A DNA stretch of 64,000 nt from Persicaria tinctoria (lineage: Eukaryota > Streptophyta > Magnoliopsida > Caryophyllales > Polygonaceae): positions 64,483,688 through 64,547,687 of the forward strand of contig JBANSL010000013.1 in assembly GCA_037127255.1 (NCBI GenBank). Reading direction: 5' to 3'. Shown piece by piece: positions 15,465-58,255 of the stretch (position 1 is its first letter; each line of letters starts with the position of its first letter). The notes beneath the pieces are model-generated. The model searched no databases and had not been told where the DNA came from. It saw nothing but the letters and a program-made list of their open reading frames with translations. Both the position numbers and the translations under genes were made by a program.

Positions 15465-16264
15465 TGGTGCGGGACGAACATCTTTGGCACTTTCCCTCTT
15501 TGCCAAATAGTAATAAAAATCCAAACTTAAACACACAACCAATAGATTAGGCAACCAAACACTTGATAAACCAAATAAATCATAGTATAGCGATGAAGTC
15601 CGATGTCGAACCCACAGGGAGAAGTGATTTCCTATTCAATGACTCTAGACAAGAGTATTTAAAGCAAAGCAATAATCTTTTGAACAAATAGGAAATATAT
15701 AAGTAACCGGATTGCAAATCACAAAGCAAATTCATATCAAATGAGAAATAACATTTCACATGTAATTCTCTGACAAATGTTGGAATTCATGGTCCTCGGA
15801 TTGATTTATCAATTATTCATATTCTTAGGTCTACTTGACTAAAGTCAAGAGATATGCAGAGATTCACTCATCTGATTCATATCACTAAAGAATAGCATTA
15901 AGAATTCAAGTAATCAAGACCAATTGGCACATTGAATCTATTCAATCAAGACAGATAGACGCATACCAAACTCAATCTTAATAAAATATCCTCAACATAG
16001 ATCAACTGAAATCATTCACTATAAAGACAAAGAGACATCACTATCATCAATACCTTTGTTGACTATCGAGAAAACAACAACGAATTCATAACTAGAGATG
16101 CAATTCCTAACATGTTGATCGGGCATAGAAAGGAACACAAATATAAATTAAGCACAAGATGATAACTAAGATCATGAATAATCAAATAAACTCAAGTCCT
16201 CAAAATCCAAACAACCATGTCTTCGAATTACAGGCGAAACTATGAGTTTAGCAACTCATAGGCC

Positions 16265-16311
<47 letters not shown>

Positions 16312-16774
16312 ATTGAGTTCATAGTTTCTCTCTAACGTCATACGTATATCTAAAGAACTGAAAAAAAAACTAAATAGAGTCTCCTAAGGTCGGCAAAAAC
16401 CCTAGAGGAATTAATAAGAAATAATATAAAATAATAGTCTTCGGATCCAAAACCACATATTCGGGATCTGGGGCAACGACGGGCGCCGTGCCCGACGTTC
16501 CTCATTTTCCTTCAATGAATTCTAATGTCGTGCCTCCTTGCTCCTCATTAGCTTTTCCTCATCCCCCATATGCTCCAAAAAATGCTTCTTAAGCTCTTTC
16601 CATAGTCCATCTAAGGTTGGAATGTAATTCTGCATAATAAACACTAAAAACGCATAGATTCCGAACTCGAATACTTCGCAAGTAATAAACAGAACTAGAC
16701 TTAAAACATAACAAAACCAATACCCAATAGCAATAAGAAACACATATAATGCCTATATGAAATATGCATTATCA
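15465..16774 (-). repeat. 3' LTR of A1
   Basis: 1310 bp. On the minus strand it begins TGATAATGCATATTTC and ends CCCGCACCA. It contains a CT microsatellite (about 16267-16310) and a one-mismatch copy of the A1 palindrome at 16478-16489. Confidence 0.92.
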
Positions 16775-16812
16775 AATCCCCTCACACTTAACTCTTGATT
16801 GTCCTCAAGCAA
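16775..16812 (-). promoter_or_regulatory. Polypurine tract plus hairpin of A1 (module 1)
   Basis: On the transcribed strand a hairpin (TTGCTTG, loop AGGA, CAATCAA, one mismatch) is followed by TTAAGTGTGAGGGGATT and the LTR start. The purine run primes plus-strand synthesis. The hairpin recurs at the same place in A2, C and D. Confidence 0.7.
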
Positions 16813-18430
16813 TCATAGGGAAAAACATCATCCACGCATCCCACAAGAAATCTTTCACAACTTTACTCATCAAAAGCAATATCATCAATAGTGAAAATAT
16901 AACCAAACATATACACATCATATATATATATATATATATGGGATCAAGTAGCTTGCATGCTCGAAAATCAACCTTACTAAGGATAAAATGTGTATCTCTC
17001 ACTCTCATGTGTTTAGGCTTTAAGCACACACTCACCTCAATTCTATATACAAGCATCAACTACAATATTGACATTTATATCACAAAATCTCCACCGGATA
17101 CGTCAATGCAAAAATAAAAACATCAAGAGGACTTTCGCTTAATGGAAACCTTCATAGAAGATTCCATTCGGTGGGGTTTGTAATGGGGCTTGGTAGAAAC
17201 ATAAGGGCAAGGAATTGTGTTTGATCATGTGGTGGTATAAATTACGGGAAAACAAGATTCCAAAACTCCCAACATAACACAAACCAACTCAATAAATCAA
17301 GCTCACAAATGCACAACATCTCTCAATATCATCAAAATAACTCCAAAAATCTCAAATCTCACCATCTTACATATCATGCAATCTCAACACCCAACCAATG
17401 TATCTCATAACCAACATAAATCTCAATTCTTCCTCATTATGCAAACATAAGATAAATGTCTCTTTTTTCTTTTCTTTTTTTCTTTTTTGTTTCTTTTTCT
17501 TTTTTTCGGATTTTTTTTGATAACTTACTTTTACCCCTAGGTGAATTTTATCCCCCCTAGGTCCAAGGTTTTTTTTCCTTTTTTTTTTCTTGAGCCTAAG
17601 TACATGAAAATCAAATGCATATACATGAGGGACTAAATAAGCACATAACATTACATTTTCTCAAAAACCATAAACCATAAAATCACACTTTAGCTTCATT
17701 CTCCTCAATCTCCAAAATAGATTCCATAACCCACTCAAAATCTCAATTCCCCCGGAATAATGGTAAGATTCATCATATGCTAGGAATAATAATTTTGTGG
17801 AGCTAACAACAAAAAGGCTAAAGGTTCAAATTGGCTTCAAAGCAAGATATAACATTGAGTAGATATGGATAAATATGTGGCTAAAAGGTTGCCTCTATCA
17901 TTTGAACTTATCAAGCATTGAACATGTATATAATCGGCCTTGAAAATAGATAATCATGGCGATACTCAATGATAAATGCATAGGAAGAGTATATCACACA
18001 AGAAAAGCAAAAGAAATATATGTGTATCCCTCCCTTATAAGGCCAAAAATATCTCACTGGAACAATTTTTTTGTAGCATTCCAAGCATAATCCCACACTT
18101 AGATCATACATGCTCAATTATACATGTTCAATCATATTTCACATAAAAACCAATTTTCAAGATAAGATCAAATCATTCCAGAATTCCATGAGATTTATAA
18201 GATCACGTCATGACAAACTCAAATTAAGATGGGTATCCTTGACAACACAATATGCAAAACCACAAAACAAAACTCACTTTTTTCATGATTTTTTCGACAT
18301 TTTTCAAAAAAAATTCTTTTTTTTTTACATTTCATATAACATAAAACAAATAACATAAAGAAATAACAAAGACTCAAAAGCAAAAATTCAAAGACAAACA
18401 GAAATTCAAACATGCACTAACCAAACTAAT
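16813..18430 (-). other. 3' non-coding region of A1
   Basis: No gene. It holds a (TA)n tract at 16921-16938 and a long interrupted T/C tract at 17455-17590 (purine-rich on the transcribed strand). Comparable tracts lie at matching places in A2 (29155-29195) and D (52300-52370). Confidence 0.6.
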
Positions 18431-18551: not shown

Positions 18552-19846
18552 TTACTGTGAAGGCGGGGTCTGGGTTCCGGACCATTGATTGATGTCCTGA
18601 AGGGCAATCAATACGGCGCTCTGAAGACTAGAGAGCTTCTCCGCAAGTTTGGCGAGCTTATCAACAATGCTCGCTTCATAATCAGCAAATCGACGCTCGA
18701 TATCAACCGAAGTGGCATATGTAGGCTCGACGTCTTCTTTATCAACTTCTTCTTTCTCTTCGACGACCTCAACTTCTTCTGCAACTTCTGTAATTTCAGC
18801 AGGCAAAACACCAGCATCTTCATCAACAAGCTCATCAGCTGCAACCTCATCATCCGCATTCTCATTGTCGGTGGCCTCATTATTAATAATAGCCCAATGC
18901 TTTAACCAGCTCTTCTCCGCATGATCTAATGGAAACTGGTTGTGATAGAGATTGAAGTCTGAAAGCCTCAGGCACTCTGGTATATCCGCATGCAGATAAT
19001 TGTGATGCTTCCTTCTTGGCCCCGACATCAATTTAAAACACCAGGTTTTATCCGTTCGTTGGGCCCACTCAATCATCTCCCACCATTGCAGGCTGTAAAG
19101 ATTATAAACATTCTTATCATCGAGGCGCTGCAAACCATCCAGGCAGACACCTACTCGGCGTGCAATCAGCGAAATCAAACCTCCGAACAAAACAATGTGC
19201 CACTACCTCACATGAGTAGCTCTAATCACTTCCATACAGTTTCCCAAAAATAGTTGAACCCAGTCTGGGATGTACACCTCTCCTTGAGTCATGCAGAAAA
19301 TATAGCTCTAGACTCTCATAGTAACAATGGACGGATTCTCCACACCCAGGAAAGAGTAGCAGAGTACCAAATAACATAACCTCAACGCAGGATGAGTAAT
19401 CATTGATTCGTGGTACTGTTCGTCAAAGTCAACGAACTATGAAATAGCCTCATTCCACAAATCAAGAGGATCTCGAGCGCCTAACTTATCAGAAAATCTA
19501 GCACCAGCAGGCCACTTGTTAACACCAAAGGCTTGTGCAATGAGATCCTTACTCACCACGAACTTTCGATTCCTCGGCTGAAAACGAATCTCCATATCAG
19601 AGCGATAATCCAGGGTGGCCAAGAACTCTCTTACTAATGCTGGATAGGTGTAAGCAGACACATCCAAGAAATCTTCCAATCCCCCATCTCGCAGGAGTCG
19701 ATGGACCTCCCTATAAATTCCCAGTTTCTTCAACGTCGGGGGGTAAAAGAATATGGTGGATTCATACCATCTTTCTTCAAGCTTGAGCCAAGGATCCTCT
19801 TCTTTCTAAGACAGAAAAAGGGGCTTCTTCATACCAGGGGTCGACA
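18552..19846 (-). pseudogene. ATHILA-type ORF (plant retroelement ORF1/env-position protein), broken
   Basis: Two open pieces (19437-19733 and 18552-19190), plus a start region near 19846, read in order on the minus strand. The first carries LGIYREVHRLLRDGGLEDFL and YPALVREFLATLDY, the core signature of the Arabidopsis Athila ORF-1 family. The second has FGGLISLIA and ends in an acidic, Glu/Val-rich, probably coiled-coil tail. Stops or frameshifts separate the pieces. The protein occupies the place after pol where Athila elements have their extra ORF; its function is unknown. Element D has a better copy (53252-54517). Confidence 0.75.
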
Positions 19847-20019
19847 TGATGTAACTTGAGGAAAAACCGAAGAAAATCTACAAAAACGACCAAAAATCGG
19901 GCTCGTTGTAGAGGCGGCGGGCGCCGTGTACGTAAAGGAATGGAATGAGTAAAAATTGATTTTTGTGGATGTAGGGTAGTGGCGGAAAGTGTTTTGGTGG
20001 ATTGAATCGATTGAAACAC

Positions 20020-20721
20020 AAGGCTTTAGGCAGTTCGATTGGATTCCAGTAGACTTTTGGTATTCTTGAGATTCCTCTTGAGCAAGTTTAATTGATCCAC
20101 AAATAAGGAGAAATATTATATGGTGAGTTGGAAGGAAATCTATCAAAAAGAAAAAGAAAAAATATTAGAACTAGATAGAATAGAAATAGAAAGGATATAA
20201 ATCTAATCCTAGGAAATAAGTACACTATCCTAAAAAGAAAAATCTAACCCTAAAATAAAATAGAAAATAAATAAGGGATAAAATATTAACCTAAGATAGA
20301 TAGAAAATAATCTAACCTGAAATAGATAAGAAACAATCTAATCCTAGGTAGAACCAAAATAAAGGAAAACAATCTAGTCCTATAAAACATAAAAATTAAA
20401 ATAACCGAAACTCGGAAAATAATCAAAAAGAAAAATATAGAAACTTCCCTTCTAAGTTTACCAAAATTCGGATTCGTCAAGCGGACATACAGGCGGCGGG
20501 CGCCGTGTCCACATAATGCAACTCCGTCTTTTAAATCAATCAAAACTCAAACCCAAAATCGGTTTCACTTACCGTAACTTCCAAAATCCTTTGACACGAT
20601 TGATCCTACTTTATTTAATTGAAAAACAAATGCAAAAATAGAAATACTACCTAACTCCTTGGGTTACCTCCCAAGAAGCGCCTTTGTTTCACGTCTTTGG
20701 CTCGACGTGATGCAATCTTGA
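20020..20721 (-). other. A1 spacer replacing RT-RNase H-integrase
   Basis: About 0.7 kb of AT-rich DNA separates the protease from the ATHILA ORF, where 3 kb or more of pol would be expected. It contains an exact CGGCGGGCGCCG at 20494-20505 (another at 19915-19926) and repeated ATCTAACC/TAGATAGAA words. The hairpin described next lies near its right end. Confidence 0.7.
20658..20675 (-). promoter_or_regulatory. Conserved hairpin CTTGGG-AGGTAA-CCCAAG (A1)
   Basis: A six-bp stem with a six-base loop lies 46 bp beyond the protease stop. Element D has the same structure at 55602-55619 with one stem pair changed from T-A to C-G on both sides. The flanking AGAAGCG is also shared. The loop AGGTAA contains a donor-like AG/GTAA in A1 but AGGCAA in D. 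Role unknown. Confidence 0.6.
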
Positions 20722-21591
20722 TCAAGTTATTCCACCAACATCTCCAACACTTGTTCTTCTCAGAACAAGAGGCGGAACTTTAGGAACTTCTCTGACATAG
20801 CCATCATTAGCATCCATCGATTCCTTATTGAAATGAGTAACTCTGGGAGACACATTTTCATGCGACTGAAACAAATTCTCAATTTTCTTTTCAATGTCAT
20901 CTTTCCCTAATCCAATTTCATCTTTGTTAGAGAACTCAAGATTCATAGATTCAATTTCAGCAAAAGCATCTAACAAAGCATTTGATTCATTCATGTGAAT
21001 AGTTTCATTAGAGTCAAGAACATCTATGGAATCATTGGCAGAAGAAACAATAGGCTCAAATATACAAACCTCAATATTTCTACCATCAAATTCCATAGTT
21101 AGTGAACCTTCAAAACAATCAATCTTAGTTTTAGCCGTTCGTAAGAATTGCCTTCCCAAGATAATCGGGGTTTCGGGCGTACCTTGTTTCATGTCTAGAA
21201 TGAAGAAATCAGCTGAAAAAATCAAATCATTTACCTTTACCAACACACCTTCAACAACTCCTCTAGGATTAATACTAGAACGATCAGCGAGTTGTATAGT
21301 AACACTAGTTTCAGAAAATGAATTGAGACCCAAAAACATGTACAAGTTATAAGACATAACATTGATTGAAGCACCTAGGTCTAACATAGCTTTGGTGAAG
21401 CTAGCATTGCCTATTTCACATGGTATAGTAAACATACCTAGATCTCCGCACTTTTCAGGCAATTGTTTCTGAAGCAAAGCAGAAACATTCTCACTTAAAC
21501 TTACCTTTTCCTTCTTTCTCATCCTTTGCTTGCGCTTTATCGTGCATAGGTCTTTCAAGAATTTCGCATAGCGAGGCACAGTTTTAATCAA
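20722..21591 (-). CDS. Athila-type aspartic protease domain ORF (A1)
   Basis: This is a 289-codon open frame. It opens with PRYAKFLKDL, typical of the gag-protease junction in Athila elements, then KMR-rich linker and the retropepsin: LDLGASINVM near residues 91-100 holds the catalytic Asp (DLGAS in this lineage), and PIILGRQFL near residue 163 is the second conserved motif. A Ser/Asp/Glu-rich tail follows. The protease would process Gag in the particle. No RT follows, unlike an autonomous element. The frame is open, but its true start depends on the broken gag upstream. Confidence 0.8.
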   Translation of the reverse strand: MIKTVPRYAKFLKDLCTIKRKQRMRKKEKVSLSENVSALLQKQLPEKCGDLGMFTIPCEIGNASFTKAMLDLGASINVMSYNLYMFLGLNSFSETSVTIQLADRSSINPRGVVEGVLVKVNDLIFSADFFILDMKQGTPETPIILGRQFLRTAKTKIDCFEGSLTMEFDGRNIEVCIFEPIVSSANDSIDVLDSNETIHMNESNALLDAFAEIESMNLEFSNKDEIGLGKDDIEKKIENLFQSHENVSPRVTHFNKESMDANDGYVREVPKVPPLVLRRTSVGDVGGIT

Positions 21592-22924
21592 ATTAAAAAG
21601 TGGAATATTTACCTCAAAATGAGCAAAGGTGTCGTAAAGAATTTGTTCATCTTCCTACTTGCGATCAGATCTTATGGGATGAGGAAAGCGCAAGCAAAGG
21701 GTCTCTCTTCAACATTCCTAGTGGGTGTATTCACTTGTTTACCTCCTCTAAGGGTCATGGCGCTGACATTTTCCTTCGGATTCACCACCACTGGAGATGG
21801 CAACTTCCCCGAATCCTTCGCTTTCAATTCACCAATCTCCTTACCAATTTGACTCAGCAACTTTTCTTGAACACTCATCTTGTCCAATAACAACCTCAAT
21901 GTCTCATCTCTGTCATCTTTTTGAGTGGTTCTAGGATGATACTCATATTGTTCTCTTTGAAAAGGAACTTGTTGTTGCTGGCCTCTTCTATTGAATCCAC
22001 TTTGGTAGTTTGAATTGTATCCTTGATTGTAATTGTTACCAAAGTTGCAGCGAGGTCCATAATCTATAACATTCACTTCAGCGGTGCTCTTCTGAATCAA
22101 GGGATACTTATCATTCGGATGAGTATCCATCTCAACAAACTCCACAATGTCTAGACTGAGGGGGTTGATTCATAACCATCTTGTTCACGATCTCCATAAG
22201 CCTATCGATATCGTCCTTGTGTCCATCTCTTGAACTATCCAACTTATGAACTCCTCTAACTCCTTGGTATCTCCCATATTGTTGCGATGCATTAGCCAAC
22301 CCTTCAAAAATCTGCATTGATTCCTGATGTGTTTTGTCCAAAATATCTCCCCCACTAGTAGCATTGGTGAAACTCCTATTGGTGTCAAGCAAGCCTTCAT
22401 AAAGATATAGCACTAGATCATCCTCGGGTATACCGTTGCGGACAACTACCCTTAAGCTTCTTGAACCACTCAACATACTCATAAATACTCTCCGTAGATG
22501 ATTGCTCAATACCGGACAACTCCTTCTTAAGTTTGTTGAGGCGAGTCGTAGGAAAGTACTTTTGCAGGAAAACTTTCTTCAATTGCACCCAAGTAGTAAT
22601 GCTTTTTGGGGTAGGTAGTAAAGTCAATCGCTTGCAGCATCTTTTAGAGTAAAGGGGAACACTCTCAGCATCAATTGGTCGTCAGACAAGCCTTGGGGTC
22701 TCAGTCTATCACACACACTCACAAAGGTAGCAAGGTGCTTGTTTGGCTCCTCCCCAGGCAATCCATGAAAGTTAGGCAAAATAGATGACCAATTCGACTT
22801 GAACTCAAATCTTGAACCCTCAGGGAGATCCGGAAGACTAATTGCAAGTGGTTGAACACTCAAATCAAGCTCTGTTAGGTTCCTCAGGGTCCTTTTTGGC
22901 GTATTAATAACAACGTTTGCCATC
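21592..22924 (-). pseudogene. Gag of A1, frameshifted
   Basis: Starting at ATG 22923 the minus strand gives the Athila gag: NWSSILPNFHGLPGEEPNKHLATF, then (in another frame) WVQLKKVFLQKYFPTTRLNKLKKEL with the retroviral-type gag core, QSSTESIYEYVEWFKKL, and a Gln/Asn-rich region with GNNYNQGYNSNYQSGFN near 22040. Frames switch near 22625, 22500 and 22140. No CCHC knuckle is obvious. A spliced or shifted protein is unlikely; it is degenerate. Confidence 0.8.
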
Positions 22925-23121: not shown

Positions 23122-23924
23122 TGGTGCGGGATGAACGTCGTTGGCACTTTCGCCTTTTGCCAAATAGTAATAAAAATCCAAACTTAAACACACAACCAAT
23201 ATATTAGGCAACCAATCACTTGATAAACCAAATAACTACTAGTATAACGATGAAGTCCGGTGTCGAACCCACAAGGAGAAGCGATTTCCTATGCAATGAC
23301 TCTAGACAAGACATTATAAAGCAAAACAATAATCTTTTGAACAAATAGCAAATATAAAAGTAACCAGATTGCAAATCACAAAGAAAATTGATATCAAAGG
23401 AGAAAGAACACTTCACCTGTAACTCTCTGATAATGTTTGGAATTCATGGTCCTCGGATTGATTTATCAATTATTCATATTCTTAGGTCTACTTGACTAAA
23501 GTTGAGAGATCCGGAAAGATTCACTCATCGTATTCAATATCACTAAAGACTAGTATTAAGAACTCAAGTAATTAAGACCAATTGGCACATTGACTCTATT
23601 CAATCAAGACAGATAGGCGCATACCGAACTCAATCTTAATCAAATATCCTCAACATAGATCAACTGAAATCATCCACTGCAAAGACAAAAAGACATCACT
23701 ATCATCAATACCTTTGTTTGCTATCTAGAAAACAACAACGAATTCATATCTAGAGATGCAATTCCTAACATGTTGATCAGGCATAGAAAGGAACACAAAT
23801 ATAAATTAAGCACAAGATGATAACTAAGAACATGAATAATCAAATAAACTCAAATCCTCACAATCCAAACAACCATATCTTCGAATCACATGCGAAACTA
23901 TGAGTTTAGCAACTCATAGGCCAA

Positions 23925-24001
<77 letters not shown>

Positions 24002-24493
24002 AATTGAGTTCATAGTTTCTCTCTAATGTCGTACGTATGTGTAAAGAACTGAAAAACAACTAAATAGAGTCTCCTAAGGTCGGAAAAAACCCTAGAGAAA
24101 TTAATAAGAAATAATATAAAATAATAGTCTTCGGATCCAAAACCGCGTATCCGGGATCTGGGGCAACGGCGGGCGTCGTGCAAGGGGCGACATGCGTCGT
24201 TCCTGCAGTGCTCGACGTTCCTCATTTTCCTTCAACGAATTCCAATGTCATGCCTCCTTGCTCCTCCTTACCTCTTCCTCGACCTCCATATGCTCCAAAA
24301 ATGCACTTTAAGCTCTTTCCATAGTCCATCCAATGTCGGAATGTAATTCAGCAAAATAAACACTAAAAACGCATAGATTCCGAACTCGAATACTTCACAA
24401 GTAATAAACAGAACTAGACTCAAAACATAACAAAACCAATACCTAACAGCAATAAGAAACACTTATAATGCCTATATAAAATATGCATTATCA
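23122..24493 (-). repeat. 5' LTR of A1
   Basis: 1372 bp, the partner of 15465-16774. The extra length is largely a longer CT microsatellite (about 23930-23998) and a short unit at 24180-24215 next to the GGCGGGCG palindrome. Confidence 0.92.
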
Positions 24494-25690
24494 TATCACA
24501 ACCAATCTTTTTTACCCTTCTCTCGATTCCCTTTAATTGATCAGCCACCATCACCACAACCATTATGTCTGCCACCGATAGCACCTCTCATAGCCCCTCT
24601 GGTGACGAAACCCCGAACACCACCCCACCTCCTCACTACGATGACAACTCTTCATCCTGATCCTCGGGGCGCCCCCCTTCTGGTCGCCGTCCTCAACTCA
24701 TCTAGCAACACGGGTCTCCAATTGCCCACCTTTTCGGTCAAGCTTGATCGCTCCAACTACACGATCTAGCAAGCCAACATTATTTATACGTTGGATGCAT
24801 GTGAACGGTAGGACCATGTCCTCGTTGGCAACTCTCCACCCAAAACAATCACCACTACCTCAGACACCTCGCCCCCTCAAACTAGTCCTAACCTTGAATA
24901 CCTCACTTGCAAGCACAGGGAAAAATTCGTTCTTGTGTGGATCCGAACTACAATCTCGTCCAACCTTCTTGGCTATGTCACTCGATATGCCATTTCCCGG
25001 GAGGATTGGCTTACGCTGGAACACCTGTTCCATGCTCAATCCCGTGTTCGATCTATGCACCTCAAGTCTCAATTGCAGTCACTTTTCAAAGGCATTCTCT
25101 TTGTTCTAGAATATTTGGAGAAAAAAAGAGATATTGGAGATGATCTTGCTGATTGTCGAAGAAGACATCATCACCTTGGTCCTTCATGGCCTTGATCCGT
25201 CTTATGGTGCTTTTTGTGCATCCATCAATGTCCACCTTGACACTCTAACATCAGGCACTTTACTTTACTTTTTGCTACGTGAGGAGGAACGCTTGATCGA
25301 ATTGGCTGGTATCTTCAATCTCACCAACTTGCATCCAATTACGGCCAATCTCGCCCTCGTCGCTCTGATCGATCATCATCTTGATCCACTCAGTTCGCTT
25401 CTCAACAACATTGTCCACCTCCTGAGTGCTCATCTTCAAGATCGGTTGGTAGCATTGAGCCTACAACTCGCTCTCGCCCTTAGTGCCAATTATGTGATCG
25501 CATGGGCCACCTAGCAAAGGATTACTTTAGCCATCTAAATCTTCAGGCCATCCCATCTCGGCTGAGCATCTCAATCAGCAACACCCGACAGCTCCCTCCG
25601 CTTACTCAGTTTCTTCGTCCTCAATTCATGATCCAACCTCGTACTTTGAAATGGGAGGTACTGACCATGTCAGTACCTCGGTAACAATAC
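24494..25690 (+). pseudogene. Copia 3 gag, broken
   Basis: This continues the copia interrupted by A1. After the PBS remnant an ATG at 24565 opens a Ser/Thr/Pro-rich N-terminus; FSVKLDRSNYT near 24735, and the helical segments around SRVRSMHLKSQLQSLFKG (25040-25100) and ILLIVEEDIITLVLHGLDPSY (25140-25205) are copia gag (UBN2/Retrotran_gag_2) motifs. Stops and frameshifts are frequent. A residual knuckle-like region lies near 25490-25510. Confidence 0.75.
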
Positions 25691-26576: not shown

Positions 26577-29019
26577 TGCCAAAGAAATTCCCACACAAAT
26601 AACTAGTATAACGATAAGTGGAGGGTCAAACCCACAGGAAAATCTAAGATTCGAGATCTAAAAGCAGCTTTACCAAGAAGTGGAAAATAAACAAGTAAAT
26701 ATGAGAAATAGAACTAAAGATGAAGATTGCAAATGAAATAACCAAGCATAAGAATAATGGTTTTTATTTCAATTCAATAGAGAAAATAGTTCCACCTGCG
26801 CTTTCATCGACACTGTTTGGCTTAATTGGTCCCAGACATAAACTCAAGTTGTATAATTCCTTTAACTTACATTCCTCCCATCTTAGTTTGAATAGATTAA
26901 AGCACAAAGAGCATAATTAACCCCTTATACCTTTAAGCAACCTAAGCACGGACAAAGATTTAACACAAATATAACACAAATTCCTAAGAATCTAGGCATA
27001 TAAATAACACCAAGTATGCAAGGTAACTGATGTTTAAGACATATGTCAAAATCCCTACTTATTCATGATCAAACAAAGGTTCTCACAATCCTAAGTATGC
27101 TACTACAGAATTCATTCAATGACGAAAAAATAAAAACCTAGCAAGATACTATTATGGCCACGAATCACAATAATATCATCGATAACCGCAAGGGAAATCA
27201 AAAGAACAGTAGGAAAAAACTGAATTTAAGCCTCACAAATCACCGACCAAGTCTCCGAAAACAGGTGAAATAAATAACGAACTTAGCCACTCATGGCTTA
27301 CCTAAATCTCCTTCGAATTGATGGAAAATTAAGCAAACTTGAATGGATGATGAAGAGTCTATAATCAAGACTTGACAAAGTGAAATCGAATAAGATAATG
27401 TTAATGCGGAATATAAAAGATGAACACACGAATTGTTAACGAGGTTCGGCACGAACTTGGCCTACGTCCCCGCCTGTAGGATTCAAACACTTCTTATTTC
27501 ACTTCACTTGATCCTAGAACTTCCTAGAGAAACTACCCTTTCTCTATACAAAGCATCATCACTTCTATTCTAGCTCTCATCCTTACAAGTGAAATAAAAG
27601 CTCACACCACACACCAAGTGTGCTTGATCGAGTATAAAATACTCTAAGTGTAAAATGAATGACTTGTACAATAAGTGCTTGTGTTTCCCTCAACTCTTAA
27701 AAAATAAACAACACTTAAGCTTTGAGAGAATGTAAGAGAAACTTGAGATGACGAATGCTTTAGGATGCTATGATTGCTTGAGTGCTTTCTTAGGTACTTG
27801 ACATCCTTTTGCCTTCGTCTTTATATAGTCGAAAAACTTTGAGAGCTTCTTGGAGGGATGACCGTTTGAATTTCAAATTCTTTCCAAGACATTTGAATTC
27901 TTTCCGAAAATGATCCTTCCGTTTGTGTGCTTTCCAAGGTTGTTCCTTCAATCTCTTTCGTGATCACGTATGATCAAGTATGAATCGGTTCTTTCCTTGT
28001 GTGGCATATGAAATCCTAAAAGAACATACATAATGTATCTAGCACACAAAAATGGGTTAGAGGAGACATATATATCGATTAAGACCAGACCAAATCTCAT
28101 AGCCCAAGATAAAGCCCATTATATAACTTAGGCCCAATAAGGTTGGCCTCGGATCATTTCCTGTGAGAGAACAAGTCAATAGAAAAAAGCATAAGTGTTT
28201 ATCCAAACATTTTAGTCTGGGTTTCAAGACCTTGAATCCCAACCTTTTGTCTTTCATCATCCTTTAGATCCATGCACGTTAGTTATCAAGATCTTATAGT
28301 TAAGGTGGAGTCTTCAGATGAATAACCTATTGTAAATTATGATTGAAAGTCTGAGAATTATTGTTCTCCAATGTCTAATTTCGTGCCTCTCTCAATAGAG
28401 GGGAAGAGACCACGAAAACATAGATACTTTCCTTAAAGATAATGCGGAAATAATCCTAAAATAATATAAAATATCCTCAAAATATTAAAACGGAAAATAA
28501 TAATAAATAAGACTGAATATCTCTTCCTTAAACCAAAAGGAATAAGTCCTCCAAAGATTGGATCGAATTTTATTTCGTGGAGATAGAATATGATCTTCAA
28601 AATGAACTTCTCTGTGAAATCTCGCCGCCGCAAAAGGTCTCTCGCCATCGCGAATAGTGGTGTTCAACTTGATCTTCTTGCGGGCAGCTTCCCATGGTGA
28701 GATGGAGATCTCGCGGCCGCGATCTGGTGTCTCACGGCTGCGACTCATGTCATAACCGAGCTTTGCTCTCTCAGTGTTGTTGTGCTCGGCCTTTGCTTCC
28801 CATGTCTTCTTTTCCTTTGCTTTCTTCATCTTCTTCTGTCCATTATGATCCTTTCTAGGCTAACCACATGCCGAATCTGCATAAAACAATCAAAATAGCG
28901 TAGTTTTTAAACTTTTCAACTAAAAGGGCATAATATGAAATTAACTATAAAACATAACCAAATACCCATGAAATGCAACTAAAACTACTCTATAATGTCT
29001 ATTGAAATATGCATTATCA
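26577..29019 (-). repeat. 3' LTR of A2, enlarged by an internal insertion
   Basis: On the minus strand it starts TGATAATGCATATTTC at 29019 and runs to about 26577. Its outer parts resemble the LTRs of A1 and D in layout. At 2443 bp it is much longer than theirs; removing 27412-28440 and one target copy gives about 1.4 kb. An exact TCGCGGCCGCGA palindrome sits near 28710, with degenerate relatives around it. Confidence 0.75.
27412..28440. mobile_element. Insertion inside the A2 LTR with 9-bp duplication AATGCGGAA
   Basis: AATGCGGAA occurs at 27403-27411 and again at 28441-28449, flanking a 1029-bp non-coding block that the LTR does not need. The block starts with words common in plant repeats (AACGAGGTTCGGCACG). 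Nine bp is the duplication size of Mutator-like elements, but inverted ends are not evident, so the class is open. Confidence 0.5.
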
Positions 29020-32291: not shown

Positions 32292-33405
32292 ATGGAGGAA
32301 GAAGCCGCTGGAGATGACTCGATATCGACTCATCTAGTCAATATTGACCCACATCCACTCGATGTCAAGTCCCCACTCGATGTCGACTCATCTCACCAGC
32401 AACACCAGAAGCAGGCCCCTCCAGTCGATATCAACTCGACACCAATCGATATCGACTCAGCCCACTTGACATGGAAAAAAGAAGTTCCAACGTTTTGTGA
32501 AGATGCTTCAGAGGCTCAACGTCACCATTCCCTTCACTGAAGCTCTTAATGAGATGCCCTCATATGTAAAATTCCTCAAAGACATCCTAAGCAAGAAGAG
32601 CGGTCACTGGCTGAGATCGCAGAGGAGTGTAGCAAGATGGAGCTTCCGAAAAAGAGGCCATACCCAGGTAAGTTCGCTATAACCATTGATTTTGGTCAAC
32701 ATCGTTTCAATGGACTTTGTGAATTAGGAGCCAGTATGAGCATCGTGTCTCTATCAATTTGGTCCAAAGTGAAGATAGGAGCTCTAGAGCATGTAGATGC
32801 AACTTCTCAGTCGAAAACAACACGGTGGTTATCCCTACATGCATGGTGGATGATGTACTAGTTCAAGTAAGTAAGTTCTTTGTCCTGTTGATTTTCTTGT
32901 AATTGATATGGCAGAGGGCCCTGCTTATCCTATTATTTTAGGGAGACCATTCTTAGTAGCTGTCGAAGCCAACATAAACGTAAGAAAGAGAGTGCTCATA
33001 TTCATAATCAGGGATGAGGTAATTGAGTACTCTTTCAACAAGTCTATAGCAAAGCACAATGGTCCTTTAGAGGTCAAATCCATCAAGGGAGGTTACATCA
33101 CCTATGGGGAACCAAAGGTAAGAACAATGAACCCCGAGGAGTTAGAGAGGAGGGCTATGGAAGCCCAAATGGAGCAGATTGTAGCAATCTGGAACAAGCA
33201 CACAGGAAATCCAGTCGACATCGACTCAGGTAACCCGAAATCGACCGACCTTTTTCCAGATTTCGCTGCAGGAGCTAACTATTGGGTCGACATCAAGTCA
33301 ACTCACTCGATATCGAGTGAGACACTCAACATCGACCTAAATCAGAATCTCCGCCATCGACCAAGCCAAAAGGCACTACCAGCCACTCAATATCGACTCA
33401 TATGA
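32292..33405 (+). pseudogene. Linker and retropepsin of element B, active site altered
   Basis: The linker 32292-32480 reads as Asp/Ile/Ser repeats because the DNA is made of TCGATATCGA words. The protease then appears in three shifted pieces: PYPGKFAITIDFG near 32655, LCELGASMSIVSL near 32720-32760, and YPIILGRPFL near 32925. Element C has CDLGAS at the catalytic site; B has CELGAS, a conservative but probably inactivating Asp to Glu change. Frameshifts separate the pieces. Confidence 0.78.
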
Positions 33406-33639
33406 GTCGATATCGAGCCATACATATCGAGTCCTCACCTCCTCTCGAATCGACATCATCCCCAGACGCACAACATGAGTCAATATTGACTGACACCGGT
33501 CGATATTGACTGGACTCTCAGAAGCCGAATAACGAAAAATCAGCAGCGATAAGCCGAGGTGCGGATCTTTCTTCCCCTATTTCAATTAAAGATTTATCTA
33601 TACATGGAAGAGGTTTGCCTTGGTATGTAAGATTATGCA

Positions 33640-39600: not shown

Positions 39601-39610
39601 CCTCGTGGTT

Positions 39611-40141: not shown

Positions 40142-40144
40142 CTC

Positions 40145-43823: not shown

Positions 43824-44029
43824 GGACATTAGACTCCCTGACTCCTGGTTCTCCTATTTTGACACCCCTACATCATGGATTGAGGGTTATACAAATCGCC
43901 GATTATGCTTCTTTGACTCTGTGGATGTGTACCTCCTTGAATCTATGCCTCTACCCTGCATTACCCTCCTAAAATCTTCTTTTCTCTGGTCGATTTTAAA
44001 CCCTGGGACCATTGCTTACCCACGGCTTG
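43824..44029 (+). other. Unassigned segment between C and the LINE
   Basis: About 200 bp of open but unrecognised sequence. It is not part of the C LTR and not clearly LINE. It could be LINE upstream sequence or a scrap of the pre-insertion locus. Confidence 0.4.
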
Positions 44030-44567: not shown

Positions 44568-46310
44568 TGTTGTGAGCCTAATTTTCCATGTTTTATACTT
44601 ACTTTTATATCGATTTCTGCATGCATTTCATACATTTGGGTTAGAAAAGTACAGATTCTATGTAGTTTACACTTATTTTCCAAATTATGGAGCCTACACT
44701 AGTTTCTGTTTAATTTCGCAGAAATCGAGGCATTTGACAGCAATTCGGATAGAGAGGACGGAAAGCTCGAAGTCAACTACAGAAAGTCCGAGGTTAAGGA
44801 GCAACGGAACGAGGAAAGATCGAGCAAACGACAAGGAAGAAGCAACTCGACAAGGCTGGTCGATATCGACCACTTTGGTCGACATCGAGTAACCCGAGCC
44901 TAGTCAAATTCCAGTGAAGTCGAGCAGAGCACTCGAGGAACCAAGCTTGGTCGATGTCGAGTAACTTATACTCGATGTCAAGGAAACTCGACGAGCCCAA
45001 AAGATGCCCAAGCTCGAGTACAACCCCGAAGGAAGAATTCTACTCAACGTCAAGGAGTTTGGTCGACGTCGAGGACATTCCAGAAGCAGTCCAAGTCCGA
45101 GATCGAGGAGAAATCCGAGCATGAGAGGTTACTTGCAAGCCAAGATTCGAGATATTCTATCAAGAGACATCATATTCTATCAAGACAAGGAAGATCTATC
45201 CACATTAGCTTTATTTCCTTTTAGATATAATTATTTTATTTCGAAGTTTTATCTTAATGTTTTTTAGATAGAAAGTTTAGATATATATAGATATTTCTTT
45301 CCTAGATTATCTAGGGAATGAACATTATAAATAAGGCTTTAGGGGCTAGATTTTGGAATCATCCAAGCCAAGCCACAAGAGAACACATAGAGAGAGATAG
45401 CGAGTAGGAGAGAGAGAGAGAGACTTGGAGCCGAGTGGAATTGGAGAAGTTGAGAGACATTTTGGCTTCTTTCGGTTGTAAGTTTTATTTTAGTTCATTA
45501 ATGCAATTTATTTTCTTGAAATCTTTGATGAGTTTCTTGATGATGAAGAGCGAGTAGTCACCCAACTTTTAGGGTCGGGGTGAGCCCTACGGTAGCCATG
45601 TAAGGTGATGCGGTAAAGGTACAATCTTTTGATGCGATTTCGTCTTCTATCCCTACGAGCATGATTCTCTTGCGAAAGTTGAAGGTGATCCTTGTTTGTG
45701 TTATTGAAGCGAAAGTGATCTTAATGCAACTTGGATTAATTATGTTAAAAAGGTTTAGTAACAATTAGGGTTTATGCGAAATCCTCTATATTCCTATTTG
45801 TTAATAACGAAAGTTATTTGATAAAAAACATGAACTTTCATGCCTTTATGTGTTATTTTGCATGGTTATCGTTGTGGTGTTGAAACCCCAATCTTGGAAG
45901 TCCTTAGTTTATTGATTTATTTCATCAATTTCGTGTTCTGCCTTGCGAAAAGTTTCGAACTTTGTTACGTTGTTTACTCGGAATCGACAAAGCTTGGTCG
46001 GCGTCGAGTTGGTTTGGTCGAGATCAACTAGTTTTGCTTTGGTTTTTGTTTTCTATTTGTTTCTGCTTTCTGTTTTACTCGACATGGTAGTCGAAGTCGA
46101 GCACCTTACTCAAAGTCAGAGACTCTTCTGGTCGAATTCACATTGTTTTTGGAACTGAAAAGGCGGACGCTGACATGCTTCCTCGTGGATCGATCCAAAC
46201 TACCATTCACTATAACAGGAGGAAGTCTTGTATTTATTTGCTGAGACAGGGAGTCGGTTTGATTTTATATTTATATTTATTTCATACTTGACCATCCTCC
46301 TGCAACAACA
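44568..46310 (+). repeat. Solo LTR of the C/B gypsy family
   Basis: 1743 bp from TGTTGTGAGCC to CAACAACA, with perfect AGGAA duplications at 44563-44567 and 46311-46315. It is in the opposite orientation to the LTRs of C and shares their layout (compare its first 130 bp with 43680-43820 inverted). It has one exact TCGATATCGA (about 44862) and many one- or two-base variants (GTCGACATCGAG, GTCGATGTCGAG, GTCGACGTCGAG). A (GA)n tract lies near 45410. Confidence 0.92.
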
Positions 46311-49555: not shown

Positions 49556-50016
49556 AGGAAAACCACTTTGGGACAAGCCACGGATGATGATCTTGTTGGT
49601 CGCTTCGGCTTGTCCGTTAGCCTGCGGGTAAGCCACGGATGAATAAAAATTCTTGATTCCATAACCTGCACAAAAAGATTTCAAAGAAGAACTATTGAAT
49701 TGTGTTCCATTGTTGGATATCAGTGCATAGGGGATTCCGAAGCGTGTGATAATGTGCTCTCACACAAACTTCTTTATCTCCACGTCTCGGATTCCAGTCA
49801 AGGCCTTTGCCTCTACCCATTTAGTGAAGTAATCCGTTGCCGTGATCATGTAGCGCCGGCTCCCGAGCGCTTTTGGGAGGGGTCCGACCAAGTCTAGCCC
49901 CCATTGGGTGAAGGGCCAGGGGCTGGTGATGGGATGCAGATCACCAGTCGGTTGTCGAATTAGCTTGGCGAACCGCTGACACTTCTCGCACCTCTTCACA
50001 TAGCACTCGGCGTCTT
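49556..50016 (-). pseudogene. Tat integrase core, distal part (E)
   Basis: From the D junction leftward: the second half of the HHCC finger (CEKCQRFA), SPWPFTQWGLDLVGPLPKAL with the first catalytic Asp, ITATDYFTKWVEA, then a stop, then ISNNGTQFNSSSF and YPQANGQAEATNK with the catalytic Glu. The second catalytic Asp (normally SDNGTQF) is Asn. The C-terminal domain is absent; the sequence passes into the LTR edge within about 40 bp. It would join the element DNA to the genome, but is inactive here. Confidence 0.83.
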
Positions 50017-51699
50017 TGACGGAGGGAAAGTCGTTGATTTCCCTCGCCAAAAATTATTCCAAAACAAACAAACTAGTATAGTATGCAAGTAAGGGGTCGA
50101 ACCCAAGAGAATCAAGTATTTCTAAATATTGTGTATTTATCAATATAAAAAGAAAAGATTTTTATGAATGAAAACAAAAGAAAATAATATTGACAAAAGC
50201 AAATAAAAGATAGAAGAAAAGCGTTTCCACCTACAAGTTCTCGACTTTGGTTTGGTTTTATTGATCATCGAATCCTTTTCAAGTTATTATCTTTTCCTAC
50301 GAATTCATCCCGTCTTGGTTTATATAGATTAAAAGTCCTACGAGTCCAATTAATCCCTTACACCTCAATGCAACCTTAATACGGTCAAGATTTAACAAAG
50401 AGATAGCAAATAGTCCCAAGAACTTGAGCATATAAATAACACCAATTAAACACGGTAAATCAATGTTTAAGATATATGTCAACTCCCTACATAATCATGC
50501 TTCAAACACGGAATCCACAATCTTATGCGTGCTACTACGGAAATAACACAAATACGAAAGTATTAAATCCTAGCATGAAATCAATATTATCAAGGTAGCT
50601 AATCAAGATAACATCAATAACATAATCAATATCGCACAAAGAAGTTGAAAGAATTATAGAGGAAAAATAACTTAAATTAGAAACTCACAAAACCACCAAC
50701 CAAGTCTCGAAAGTGTAGGCGGAAACTAGAAAATTAGCCAAACATGGCTTACCTAAGTTTTCTTCTCTTTAATGGTGATTTCTCTACTTGAAAATTAATT
50801 GAAACTTCATTAAACTAACCCTAGAACATCCTATTTATAAGCCTAATGTCCTCCATAAACAAGGTAAAAGATAGATAAACTAGATAGAAACTTCCTAAAT
50901 AAAAGATAAAAGATAGAACTTTCCTAAAATAATTCAGCGTCGGATTCCGCTGGCAGCGAGAAATTTCCGCTGGCAGCGAATGGCCTTGATTGAGCTTCTG
51001 TTGGATTTCCGCTACCAACTCGCTAGCACACTCGCTGGCAGCGACTTTCATGCCTTAGAATTTTCTCGAGCTTCTCCGAGGACCCTTCTTTCCGCTTCCG
51101 CGAGACACTGAACCCGCTGCCGCGAGCTGGGCCTTCCGCTGTCGCGAGATCTCAAACTCGCTGGGGCGAGTTCCTTCTTCCGCTGGAGCGAGTAGCCGAA
51201 GCTTCGGGTCCTGGTGATTCTCGCTGGAAGCGGAATTTTCCGCGGCAGCGGACGTCTCGATACAGCGAGATTAGTCGCTAGCAGCGGACGTTGCTTGCTC
51301 GCTTGCTGGGCAGCTCTCTCTCGCTGGCTCTCTCTTCTCGCTGGCTCTCTCTCGCTGGCTCTATGCTTCTGGTTCCACTCGCTGGCAGCGAAAGAAATCC
51401 CGCTAGCAGCGAAATCTGCCCAGAGATTTGATTCTTCATCGTTCTTCCCTTGTTCTTTCTTTCCTCCTTTCTTTCTCTTCTGAGCTTGATTTCTTGACTT
51501 CACTTGACCATGTTTAACAGCTTTTCCTTGCTTTCCACCATGTCGGATCTACGATTATGCACAATTCAACCGAAATAGCGTAGATTCCGAACTTTTCCAC
51601 AAAAAGAGTTTAATCTAAATTAACACTAAAACATGAATATTCTACAATGTAAATGCAACTAAATTATCCTATAATGCCCATTAGAAATGTGCATTATCA
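50017..51699 (-). repeat. 3' LTR of D
   Basis: TGACGGAGGG ... GTGCATTATCA on the plus strand. The region 50935-51420 is full of CGCTGGCAGCGA-type palindromes, which produce the Arg/Ser/Glu-rich frame 51048-51503. Confidence 0.95.
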
Positions 51700-51738
51700 A
51701 ACTCCCCCACACTTAACCTTTTGCTTGTCCTCAAGCAA
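51700..51738 (-). promoter_or_regulatory. Polypurine tract plus hairpin of D (module 1)
   Basis: ACTCCCCCACACTTAACC is followed by TTGCTTG-TCCT-CAAGCAA (51721-51738), a perfect seven-bp hairpin. Confidence 0.75.
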
Positions 51739-53150: not shown

Positions 53151-53151
53151 A

Positions 53152-53251: not shown

Positions 53252-54517
53252 TCAATGTGGTGGTGAAAATTGGGTTTGCCACCCAAAGGGTGCCCAAGCG
53301 TTGAATTGGGTCATGATCTCCTCATGATTCTTTCGTTGTTTCTCCATGAGAATGTTATGGTTCTCCGCAATTTGTCGGTCCGTGGCATCTTGACGCTCGG
53401 TGATTTGACGGAAGGCGCTCTCAAAATAGCCATGAGAGGGAAAGCCATCATAAGACTCGCCATGGTACCCTCCATGTGAAGAACTAGCTCCCCCGCCATA
53501 AGACACTCGTGGATGGGATGTCTCCATTTGCATTACCGGCTCATACTCCATCTCCGTGGGTTCTTCATAAGGCTCCTCATAAGCATCTCCTTCGTTAGCG
53601 TTCGGAGGTGGGCCCAATGGTAAGGCGTCGGATGGAATATATAAATCGGCGGGGGACGGACCGGTGGGAAGTGGGCGAGGGAGTACCAAAGTGTGGGACT
53701 TATTGACCCCGGCATACCAAATGAAATTCCCCGCATAATCACTTTCCCTCACGATGTTAGCCTTCTTTAGCGAAGCCAAATTGAGCCTATAGTTGTCCGA
53801 ACAAGGGACATAGGCATTCAAATCAATGTCGAGCTCCAATGCAAGCAAAGTAATTAAGCCCCCAAAGCCAATCTTCACCTCTTCCTTCCTTGAATGCTTT
53901 TTAGTAGCCTCACCACAAGTGGTAAAGAAAAGGTCTACCCAATCCGGGGTCTCATGTGCTTCGGGCAATAAGCAAGTCATCCATGCCCAACTTCCTTTGG
54001 AAACTTTGTTGATCTCGGCATGCCCGAAAAAGGTGTTGTTCAAGACCTTGTGGCAAAGTCTAAGGGAAGGGTGGACGATGCTATAATTGTAGTCATTGCC
54101 GGAGGTCATGACCTTTTATGTGACTTCAAACCATCGTTGTTGAGGGGTGGAGCGACGAGGCAATTCAGACCAACGGGCGGAAGGATTGCCCGTGATTCCA
54201 AACACATTCTTCAATTCTTCAAAAGTCATAGTTTGATTTGCCCCACCTAATCGAAAAGTAAAACTATCCTCACTAGCCATTGCAAAGGTAGCCAAAAATT
54301 CCCTAACCAAATCCGGATAAGTGCGGACACACTTGTCTACCAAACCATCAATATCTCCAATGCCCATAAATGTCCGCACACTCTCCTCAAGTCCCAATAA
54401 TCTCAATGTGGGGATATCAAAAAATTTCGAAATATACCGACGAGCATCAAGATCATCCCACCTAGTCCTTTGAGCTCTAGTCAATCCTCTAGGCCTAACA
54501 ATTGGTGGAGAAGCCAT
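53252..54517 (-). pseudogene. ATHILA-type ORF of D, one in-frame stop
   Basis: ATG at 54517; the frame runs 422 codons to 53252 with a single TAA at 54116-54118. The N-terminal half has DLDARRYISKFFDIPTLRLL, TYPDLVREFLATF and TMTFEELKNVFGI, the ATHILA ORF-1 core. The second half has FFGHAEINKVSKG, GFGGLITLLALEL, YAGVNKSHTLVLPRPLPTGP, an acidic repeat (YEEPYEEPTEME), a Gly/Ser/His/Tyr stretch and a charged C-terminal helix. In an element this young the stop may be recent, or bypassed. Its product has no known enzymatic activity; particle or RNA binding is a guess. Confidence 0.82.
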
Positions 54518-55601
54518 AATAATTAATCAAAAGATGAAGACCGAAGACTCACAAATAAGGCGACTCACTGGAGGATTTTCGCTGGCAGCGAGTGGTGTCC
54601 CGCTGGCAGCGAATTGAGTCAGGCCGGAGGAGCAGCGTTATGGGTGCGATTCGCTGGCAGCGAAGGCTAATCACTGGCAGCGAACAGGGTGACACCGACG
54701 GGCTCCGGAACTGCTGCGTAAGTGGTGAGACTCGCTGGCAGCGACTGGTTTTCGCGGCAGCGAATGGAACCACCTGTTGGGCTCGGAGGTTCTGCTGTGT
54801 CGCTGGTGGCGGCTCCTATTCCGCGGGAGCGCGTCGGAGCTTCCGAAATTCCGGCGTCGTTGTCCGGACGTCGGATTCCCAAAAATTCCTTCACGAAAGT
54901 TTCCCAACTCGACCCGATCTATGCAGTGGCGGAAGAATAAAAGGGATTTGGGTGATTGTGTGGTTATGTGGTGGTTGATGGGTGGTCGAAATATGGTGAA
55001 TGGGGTGTGGTTGTGTAGATCGGCTCGTCGGAAGTCGGAATCCGGTGCCGGAATTTGATTTCGGGGTGGCGGAGATGATGAGGTGGCTATGGAGGTGAGA
55101 AGCTTGGAGGTGCTCCAATGGAGGTGTGTAGGGGGGTTTTGGAAGGAGGAAGAAGATGGTAAAAATGGGAAGTGGGTGATGATGAATATAAAAAATGGGT
55201 AAAAAGGAAAGTGGTTAAAAGGGTAAGTGGGTAAAAAGGGGTAAAAAGGAATCTCCAATATTTTATTCTTTTTTTTTTTTTTTTTTTTTTTGGAAATCTG
55301 GGTGGCTTCGGGATATGGCATAGCTCGCTGCCAGCGGGTCTGGGTTCGCTGGCAGCGAATGGGGCCGCTATGCTCGGAAGCTCCATGGTTGGTGCTGGTT
55401 TCTCTCGTTGGCAGCGACAATTTCGCTGTCAGCGAAAACAGCCCAGTACATCCTTTTTCCGACTTCTCTCTTGTCCCTACGAGGTTAGCTTCAAACTATT
55501 CCGAAAAAAATCTATCTAATGTGATAAGGAAGTCTCATTTATTAAATGACAAAACTAATTAACTAACTAGGAATTGAAATAACTAATTTAGGAAAACTTA
55601 C
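54518..55601 (-). other. Leader/spacer of D between the two ORFs
   Basis: About 1.1 kb without a credible gene. Exact or near TCGCTGGCAGCGA palindromes lie at about 54580-54750 and 55320-55440, and a long T run is at 55268-55291. Overlapping frames on both strands (54592-54978, 54671-55420) are products of the GC-rich palindromes. Confidence 0.6.
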
Positions 55602-56441: not shown

Positions 56442-56549
56442 TGCAAACAATTAGTAACGAGGTGTCGTGAACCATAAGATAGGTCCACGACGGGGATAGA
56501 TATATATACAAATATTAATAAATACACAAAACAAAGAAATAAACTTGAT

Positions 56550-56567
56550 TCCCCGGCAACGGCGCCA
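56550..56567 (-). other. Primer-binding site of D
   Basis: TGGCGCCGTTGCCGGGGA on the minus strand, 3 bp from the LTR, identical to A1. Confidence 0.88.
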
Positions 56568-56570
56568 ATT

Positions 56571-58255
56571 TGACGGAGGGAAAGTCGTTGATGTCCCTCG
56601 CCAAAAATTATTCCCATACAAACAAACTAGTATAGTATGCAAGTAAGGGGTCGAAACCAAGAGAATCAAGTATTTCTAAATATTGTGTATTTATCAATAT
56701 AAAAAGAAAAGATTTTTATGAATGAAAACAAAAGAAAATAATATTGACCAAAGCAAATAAAAGATAGAAGAAAAGCGTTTCCACCTACAAGTTCTCGACT
56801 TTGGTTTGGTTTTATTGATCATCGAATCCTTTTCAAGTTATTATCTTTTCCTACGAATTCATCCCGTCTTGGTTTATATAGATTAAAAGTCCTACGAGTC
56901 CAATTAATCCCTTACACCTCAATGCAACCTTAACACGGTCAAGATTTAACAAAGAGATAGCAAATAGTCCCAAGAACTTGAGCATATAAATAACACCAAT
57001 TAAACACGGTAAATCAATGTTTAAGATATATGTTAACTCCCTACATAATCATGCTTCAAACACGGAATCCACAATCTTATGCGTGCTACTATGGAAATAA
57101 AACAAATACGAAAATATTAAATCCTAGCATGAAATCAATATTATCAAGGTAGCTAATCAAGATAACATCAATAACATAATCAACATCGCACAAAGAAGTT
57201 GAAAGAATTATAGAGGAAAAATAACTTAAATTAGAAACTCACAAAACCACCAACCAAGTCTCAAAAGTGTAGGCGGAAACTAGAAAATTAGCCAAACATG
57301 GCTTACCTAAGTTTTCTTCTCTTTAATGGTGATTTCTCTACTTGAAAATTAATTGAAACTTCATTAAACTAACCCTAGAACATCCTATTTATAAGCCTAA
57401 TGTCCTCCATAAACAAGGTAAAAGATAGATAAACTAGATAGAAACTTCCTAAATAAAAGATAAAAGATAGAACTTTCCTAAAATAATTCAGCGTCGGATT
57501 CCGCTAGCAGCGAGAAATTTCCGCTGGCAGCGAATGGCCTTGATTGAGCTTCTGTTGGATTTCCGCTACCACCTCGCTAGCACACTCGCTGGCAGCGACT
57601 TTCATGCCTTAGAATTTTCTCGAGCTTCTCCGAGGACCCTTCTTTCCGCTTCCGCGAGACACTGAACCCGCTGCCGCGAGCTGGGCCTTCCGCTGTCGCG
57701 AGATCTCAAACTCGCTGGGGCGAGTTCCTTCTTCCGCTGGAGCGAGTAGCCGAAGCTTCGGGTCCTGGTGATTCTCGCTGGAAGCGGAATTTTCCGCGGC
57801 AGCGGACGTCTCACTGCAGCGAGATTAGTCGCTAGCAGCGGACGTTGCTTGCTCGCTTGCTGGGCAGCTCTCTCTCTCGCTGGCTCTCTCTTCTCGCTGG
57901 CTCTCTCTCGCTGGCTCTATGCTTCTGGTTCCACTCGCTGGCAGCGAAAGAAATCCCACTAGCAGCGAAATCTGCCCAGAGATTTGATTCTTCATCGTTC
58001 TTCCCTTGTTCTTTCTTTCCTCCTTTCTTTCTCTTCTTAGCTTGATTTCTTGACTTCACTTGACCATGTTTAACAGCTTTTCCTTGCTTTCCACCATGTC
58101 GGATCTACGATTATGCACAATTCAACCGAAATAGCGTAGATTCCGAACTTTTCCACAAAAAGAGTTTAATCTAAATTAACACTAAAACATGCATATTCTA
58201 CAATGTAAATGCAACTAAATTATTCTATAATGCCCATTAGAAATGTGCATTATCA
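56571..58255 (-). repeat. 5' LTR of D
   Basis: The partner of 50017-51699, with about 20 substitutions and a 2-bp CT length change. The palindrome cluster is at 57490-57965. Confidence 0.95.

Follow-up and report, generated by a model that had tools for sequence, protein, structure and literature searches.

Repeated palindromic motifs have been described in Sireviruses, a lineage of Ty1/copia retrotransposons; according to the available text of PMC2829016, these motifs are element-specific in sequence, occur in many copies from 200–400 bases into the long terminal repeat (LTR) and upstream of the TATA box, recur in extra copies ahead of the env gene, and are associated with CpG islands. In maize, the palindromes of Sireviruses are presented as cis-regulatory and as hot spots of small RNAs in the accessible portions of PMC10760457 and PMC5311732. 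In functional terms, a second precedent is the sequence-specific anti-silencing of VANDAL elements by VANC proteins, in which clustered short motifs bound by these proteins are spread along the element and differ between related families, and the factor acts on the elements that hold the motifs (PMC5735166, text available in part). Moreover, pol-less Athila elements of Arabidopsis comprise gag-only and gag-plus-env families that are thought to be mobilized in trans by pol-bearing families (PMC2410132, main text). Sirevirus motifs and, functionally, VANC appear to be the closest counterparts of the dyad arrays considered here, which lie in Athila-type Ty3/gypsy retrotransposons of a 64,000-nucleotide stretch of Persicaria tinctoria DNA (contig JBANSL010000013.1), hereafter called the window; its genome measures 1.68 Gb, and for the analysis a plant origin was taken from the Athila-type elements themselves. 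Such arrays are not described for Athila in the listed titles and abstract openings on Athila palindromes or repeated motifs, a survey whose scope mostly excludes the subscription literature.

The window elements A1, A2, B, C, and D were delimited by self-alignment and inspection of their edges, with target-site duplications (TSDs) called by eye; B runs on the plus strand and the other four on the minus strand, and C is nested inside B. Arrays of short dyads are real and above chance in B, C, and D, the A2 dyads are real as a class, and the A1 motif is not established. These arrays of CpG-containing dyads, present in some Athila-type lineages, are probably (at roughly 0.6) operator sites for a candidate sequence-specific DNA-binding protein, a reading that draws on their enrichment, spacing, placement, and occurrence in pol-bearing relatives.

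In a direct scan of the window, TCGAnnTCGA was counted 44 times (12 in B, 32 in C, none elsewhere) and CGCTnnnAGCG 20 times, all in D, while TCGCnnnnGCGA occurs twice in A2 and three times in D, and CGGCGnnCGCCG twice in A1. As for the longer words, TCGATATCGA is found 30 times from 32319 to 44860, TCGCTGGCAGCGA eight times from 51032 to 57935 in both D LTRs and in D internal DNA, and TCGCGGCCGCGA once, at 28711; CGGCGGGCGCCG, which is a dyad with 5-base arms around a GG center rather than a perfect palindrome, is exact at 19915 and 20494 and carries one mismatch at 16477 and 24167. When each element was subjected to 200 dinucleotide shuffles, the 32 copies of TCGAnnTCGA in C compared with a shuffle mean of 0.125 (maximum 2), the seven in the 5' part of B with 0.035 (maximum 1), and the 20 copies of CGCTnnnAGCG in D with 0.045 (maximum 1); words picked post hoc also exceeded their shuffles in A1 (2 versus a maximum of 0) and A2 (2 versus a maximum of 1). 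An open test covering every dyad with 4-base arms and spacers of 0–6, with 30 shuffles each, was passed by B (7), C (32), and D (20) against a shuffle maximum of 4, and was failed by A1 (4) and A2 (3), in which the top dyads were other words.

Genome-wide, TCGCTGGCAGCGA occurs 5519 + 5409 = 10,928 times on both strands versus 40 + 42 = 82 for the reversed pattern, and TCGCGGCCGCGA 587 times versus 16 for its reversed control. The A2 class is also clustered elsewhere, for instance in L038, where sites 367 and 388 are separated by 21 bp and a third lies at 479, and in L039, which has four sites. The A1 motif is present within two mismatches in nine of ten fetched LTRs, a set that includes one from the window itself, always as a single copy per LTR, and this retention is about what common descent at 84–89% identity would be expected to leave; the A1 relative L040 holds no array, with one LTR site (one mismatch) and one internal site (two mismatches). 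A1 was therefore rejected as an established palindrome family, given the failed open test, the one copy per LTR, and the lack of an array in L040. The palindromes that an earlier note on this DNA had assigned to the families were located within about a base of its positions and were enriched in B, C, D, and, as a class, A2, with A1 falling away.

To place the classes in their genomic context, twenty 10-kb stretches (200 kb, L009–L028) were sampled at positions picked without looking. Exact TCGAnnTCGA was found 180 times in these samples, compared with 3, 6, 6, and 7 times for four control words; at least four copies were held by 11 of the 20 samples, and at least four copies of the TCGAT/ATCGA dyad by six, while the D class was confined to one sample (L016). 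By rough extrapolation from 20 samples, this would mean more than 1 million TCGAnnTCGA sites genome-wide. The claim of one palindrome per family was consequently abandoned, because TCGAnnTCGA is shared so widely among elements, A1 has no established array, and four fetched ATHILA ORF-1 loci hold none; the palindromes fall into about three classes, one of them widely shared, rather than one for each family. One of the samples (L023:3089-9349) contains TCAAGnnCTTGA six times in its 10 kb (AAGGnCTT words nine times), possibly a further, CpG-free dyad class, in which 20-bp pairing is absent.

The unit of the arrays is a pair of dyads 19–21 bp apart. Distances between exact TCGAnnTCGA sites of 19, 20, 21, and 22 bp were counted 15, 37, 17, and 2 times, respectively, with none at 26–36 bp and further peaks near 72–74, 93, and 113 bp; a partner with at most two mismatches stood at 19–21 bp from 169 of the 180 sampled sites, versus 3 of 180 at 29–31 bp, and 134 of 180 sites remained paired when partners had to be exact. 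Similarly, 40 D-class sites from the window and five partly related loci gave nine near pairs, all at 20–21 bp and none at 26–36 bp. Flanking bases are also constrained outside the TCGA core, +1 being G or C in 336 of 360 cases and +3 being A in 295 of 360, and the central two bases (n = 180) are TA in 63, TC in 25, CA in 22, TG in 21, GA in 17, and others in 32 sites. On metagenomic virus contigs, a pair of TCGATATCGA 21 bp apart with an adjacent third near-copy was seen at L042:6060-6090, L043:1189-1219, and L044:2470-2500; the layout is operator-like, and the search for viral pairs, which returned seven loci with one pair each and no array, was set aside, the contigs being taken as unrelated to the window elements.

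Within the LTRs, the arrays occupy comparable positions. Those of C extend over 384–592 and 1414–1646 bases from the LTR start, with the TATA at 838, so that the second array follows the TATA; L026 has arrays at 388–637 and 1549–1703 with its TATA at 914, and the D array and the two A2 dyads begin at similar distances (Table 1), as does the single A1 dyad at 291. No TATA word was found in the A1 or A2 LTR. The LTRs of C and L026 align over 10–393, 893–1082, and 1684–1841 (79–84%), and the intervals between these blocks, in which both elements hold dyad arrays, share only four matches of 34–58 bases. The LTRs of D and A2 align only over 2–149 and 936–1398 (71–76%), and the unaligned middle contains CGCTnnnAGCG in D and TCGCnnnnGCGA in A2; the end of the A2 LTR was placed manually, and its middle, being the longer one, may contain an insertion. 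The array interval is thus scarcely alignable between related LTRs whose flanks do align, which upholds the proposal that position is kept while sequence changes; the accompanying term "rapidly switching" would be an extension from an undated comparison between families. In internal DNA, arrays precede the ORF-1-like region (ORF, open reading frame) in D, where the match starts from 54517, and in L016, the A1 copy of CGGCGGGCGCCG at 19915 sits 83 bases ahead of the ORF-1-like match (19832), and the internal arrays of C flank its protease frame.

With regard to coding capacity, gag and protease are present in B and C, and in A1 a protease frame is accompanied by a broken ORF-1-like region; reverse transcriptase (RT) was absent from A1, B, C, and D by tblastn with an RT query taken from the window. 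The window ORF-1-like frames themselves gave no Pfam match, whereas their relatives P0002, P0003, and P0006 pass the PF03078 (ATHILA ORF-1) cut-off; D, A1, and A2 match P0002, and no ORF-1-like match was obtained in B or C by tblastn. The primer site TTGGCGCCGTTGCCGGGG, which we take to be of the tRNA-Asp type typical of Athila, is present in A1 and D, and the C version differs by one base.

Both main classes have pol-bearing relatives that carry the same class of sites. L021, of the TCGA class, contains an open frame of 1893 codons with protease (below cut-off), RVT_1, RNase H, and integrase zinc and core domains, and gag by tblastn, which is the Ty3/gypsy order of gag, protease, RT, RNase H, and integrase. 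The proteases of L021 and C share 64% identity, and the L021 gag-pol frame is followed by the ORF-1-like protein P0005 (weak match, E 0.031). This frame holds 17 exact sites in three linkers (gag-protease, protease-RT, and RNase H-integrase) in reading phases of 9/7/1, which means that one DNA word is kept although it is read as different peptides; a frame of L017 likewise holds 14 exact sites in phases of 9/4/1. In L016, of the D class, the RT region is interrupted by stops, and the ORF-1-like region, 85% identical to that of D, also contains a stop; three copies of TCGCTGACAGCGA follow the RNase H part and occupy two reading phases.

From these features, we infer a candidate protein that would act as a dimer, with two dimers (a tetramer) bound side by side on one helix face, as the 20-bp dyad distance would correspond to two helical turns. 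By means of arrays upstream of the LTR TATA, in gag-pol linkers, and sometimes before the ORF-1/env-position gene, such a protein might decorate much of the element and either raise transcription or keep off silencing. The pol-less B, C, and D carry the site class of a pol-bearing relative and could therefore share its factor in trans, and the array interval may be replaced faster than the remaining LTR, which would generate new site classes. If true, lineage-exclusive arrays common to elements with and without pol would account for which of them are driven together and would give a direct handle on the escape of such retrotransposons from silencing. Because the dyads are paired at 20 bp and persist in coding linkers, the binding hypothesis is sharply testable, and the parallel with Sireviruses suggests a solution repeated in two lineages with env-position genes.

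Several alternatives must be weighed against operator arrays for an element-encoded protein. The dyads may instead be enhancer boxes for stress-related or developmental host transcription factors, captured and multiplied in U3, with internal copies driving the ORF-1/env-position gene; this is possible, if unlikely on balance, and agrees with the placement of arrays ahead of the ORF-1-like region in D and L016 and, for C, D, and L026, about 120–570 bases upstream of the TATA. Such a role was also suggested by the Sirevirus authors for their boxes (PMC2829016, available text). However, arrays also occur toward the 3' end of the LTR and within the gag-protease, protease-RT, and RNase H-integrase linkers, distant from either start, and lineage-exclusive classes with turnover would be odd for a fixed host factor. 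A neutral origin of the arrays, through tandem duplication or CpG-biased mutation, is very improbable, for although Tandem Repeats Finder reported units of 19–21 bases in C and B, the spacer middles of the 37 exact 20-bp pairs vary freely while half-sites and spacing are kept, the dyads persist in different phases of an open frame, and CpG mutation would destroy rather than create them.

A role in RNA, either as kissing, dimerization, or packaging signals common to pol-bearing and pol-less RNAs or as hairpins feeding small RNAs as in maize Sireviruses, appears improbable, even though U3 arrays would stand at the 3' end of the genomic RNA and small RNAs are in excess on Sirevirus palindromes (available parts of PMC10760457 and PMC5311732). 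In 88 neighboring dyad pairs evaluated against a permutation expectation, the inner flanks were complementary in 33 versus 22 expected (p below 0.0005); the centers of paired dyads were complementary in 37 versus 33.7 expected (p 0.17) and the outer flanks in 6 versus 14.6, which is less than chance. Moreover, centers are self-complementary in 68 and non-self-complementary in 112 of 180 sites, and the strict 20-bp period suits B-DNA. RNA self-kissing was rejected as the main constraint on the tests of center self-complementarity and neighbor complementarity, nor does a hairpin look like the main constraint; of the DNA-protein and RNA-kissing recognition that the earlier note had left side by side, the former fits better.

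Other results weigh against operator arrays. The excess of inner-flank complementarity makes a hairpin possible, and CpG transitions account for 65 of 161 one-mismatch variants, a share that methylation decay would give, so that many copies look decayed. Apart from integrase and protease/RT, no known DNA-binding domain was detected in the scanned element proteins. Among 92 ATHILA ORF-1 loci that were scored, the top four (L048–L051, about 3.5 kb each with about 1.5 kb on each side, the LTRs lying outside) held none of the four classes of dyad, nor any CpG dyad three or more times; the arrays are therefore not a general Athila trait, and the presence of an ORF-1 gene was rejected as sufficient for them over flanks of this size. 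An alignment of ORF-1 against PDB produced a marginal match to glucosidase 2 subunit beta (E 0.0015), probably through an acidic stretch, and was not used.

A bolder extension, speculative and rather doubtful, is that the "env-like" ORF-1 of Athila, or a different protein of the element, works in the nucleus as a sequence-specific DNA-binding anti-silencing factor, that the paired dyads form a lineage-specific address code by whose retention pol-less families survive, and that Sireviruses reached the same design independently. In sunflower, a 3' ORF of Athila shows partial similarity to PF20167 (related to PF03078) and a predicted nuclear localization signal (PMC11728184, accessible text), and plant mobile domain proteins, a family derived from transposable elements, have been tied to a promoter motif (PMC7156037, accessible text). 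If true, the "env-like" genes of the Athila and Sirevirus lineages would be anti-silencing genes and not envelopes.

VANDALs are DNA transposons, and U3 arrays of regulatory boxes that differ between subfamilies are familiar from Tnt1 and other LTR promoters, in few copies and in U3 only. The presence of LTRs, a primer site, and RT in a relative separates the window elements from VANDAL-type DNA transposons; judged by the Sirevirus layout (a cluster 200–400 bases into the LTR, upstream of the TATA, with at least eight copies per element), the clusters begin at 384 in C and at 290 in D, ahead of TATA boxes at 838 and 861, and the two elements hold 32 and 20 copies, respectively. Unlike Sireviruses, L021 has its RT ahead of the integrase and is thus not Ty1/copia, and the CGG-CCG core of 12 of 13 Sirevirus boxes is lacking in TCGAnnTCGA, CGCTnnnAGCG, and TCGCnnnnGCGA; the unestablished A1 word begins with CGG and ends with CCG, as that core does. 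Fixed pair spacing, copies in gag-pol linkers, and sharing with pol-less families, all found here, go unmentioned for Sireviruses in the available text of PMC2829016, which does mention box I of Tnt1. The motifs of VANDALs lie in non-coding regions, and their binding protein is known, whereas only a candidate can be proposed here; the string "palindrom" is absent from the available text on VANDALs (PMC5735166) and from the main text on pol-less Athila of Arabidopsis (PMC2410132).

Table 1. Coordinates of LTRs, dyad arrays, and coding regions of the window elements (position 1 is the first base of the window).
Feature	Position	Strand	Remarks
A1 3' LTR	15465..16778	-	87.7% identical to 23122-24497; TSD TATCA (by eye); single degenerate dyad at 16477
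A1 ATHILA ORF-1-like region (PF03078-related), not a single open frame	18552..19832	-	tblastn matches of P0002/P0003 at 19832-19146; open part 18552-19202
A1 internal stretch holding exact CGGCGGGCGCCG at 19915 and 20494	19915..20505	-	class unenriched in the open dyad test
A1 open frames	20722..22169	-	second frame: aspartyl-protease matches slightly below Pfam cut-offs
A1 5' LTR	23122..24497	-	from self-alignment and edges; single degenerate dyad at 24167
A2 LTR dyads at 28642 and 28711 (TCGCGGCCGCGA)	28642..28722	-	298 and 367 bases from LTR start
B internal TCGAnnTCGA clusters, 32319-32446 and 33215-33500	32319..33500	+	at most one mismatch
C 3' LTR, TCGAnnTCGA arrays 35752-35984 and 36772-37014	35566..37406	-	TATA between arrays, 838 bases from LTR start
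C internal arrays 38725-38922, 39422-39552, and 40329-40419	38725..40419	-	around protease frame 39611-40144
C 5' LTR, arrays 42237-42431 and 43241-43433	42051..43830	-	tRNA-Asp-type primer site adjoins 3' end
B 3' part, TCGAnnTCGA clusters 44767-45097 and 45978-46091	44767..46091	+	at most one mismatch
D 3' LTR, CGCTnnnAGCG array 290-743 from LTR start, TATA 861	50016..51700	-	TSD GTCTT (by eye)
D ATHILA ORF-1-like region (PF03078-related)	53255..54517	-	421 codons, one stop; open frame 53255-54115
D internal dyad clusters 54579-54800 and 55325-55423	54579..55423	-	immediately 5' of ORF-1-like region
D 5' LTR, array as in D 3' LTR	56570..58256	-	98.6% identical to 3' LTR; tRNA-Asp-type primer site adjoins 3' end

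Other repeats surround these elements. Two 166-base direct repeats that are 97% identical (48706-48871 and 62823-62988) are probably the ends of an antisense gag-pol element interrupted by D, with gag at 61112-62224 and RT at 59198-60631, which contains none of the four CpG dyad classes; a tandem array of 18/37-base units (49159-49470) lies within this same element. An open frame at 46472-46936 resembles, by eye, the C-terminus of a LINE reverse transcriptase, and a Ty1/copia-type element with 128-base terminal direct repeats and frames for integrase and RT occupies 3644-6964.

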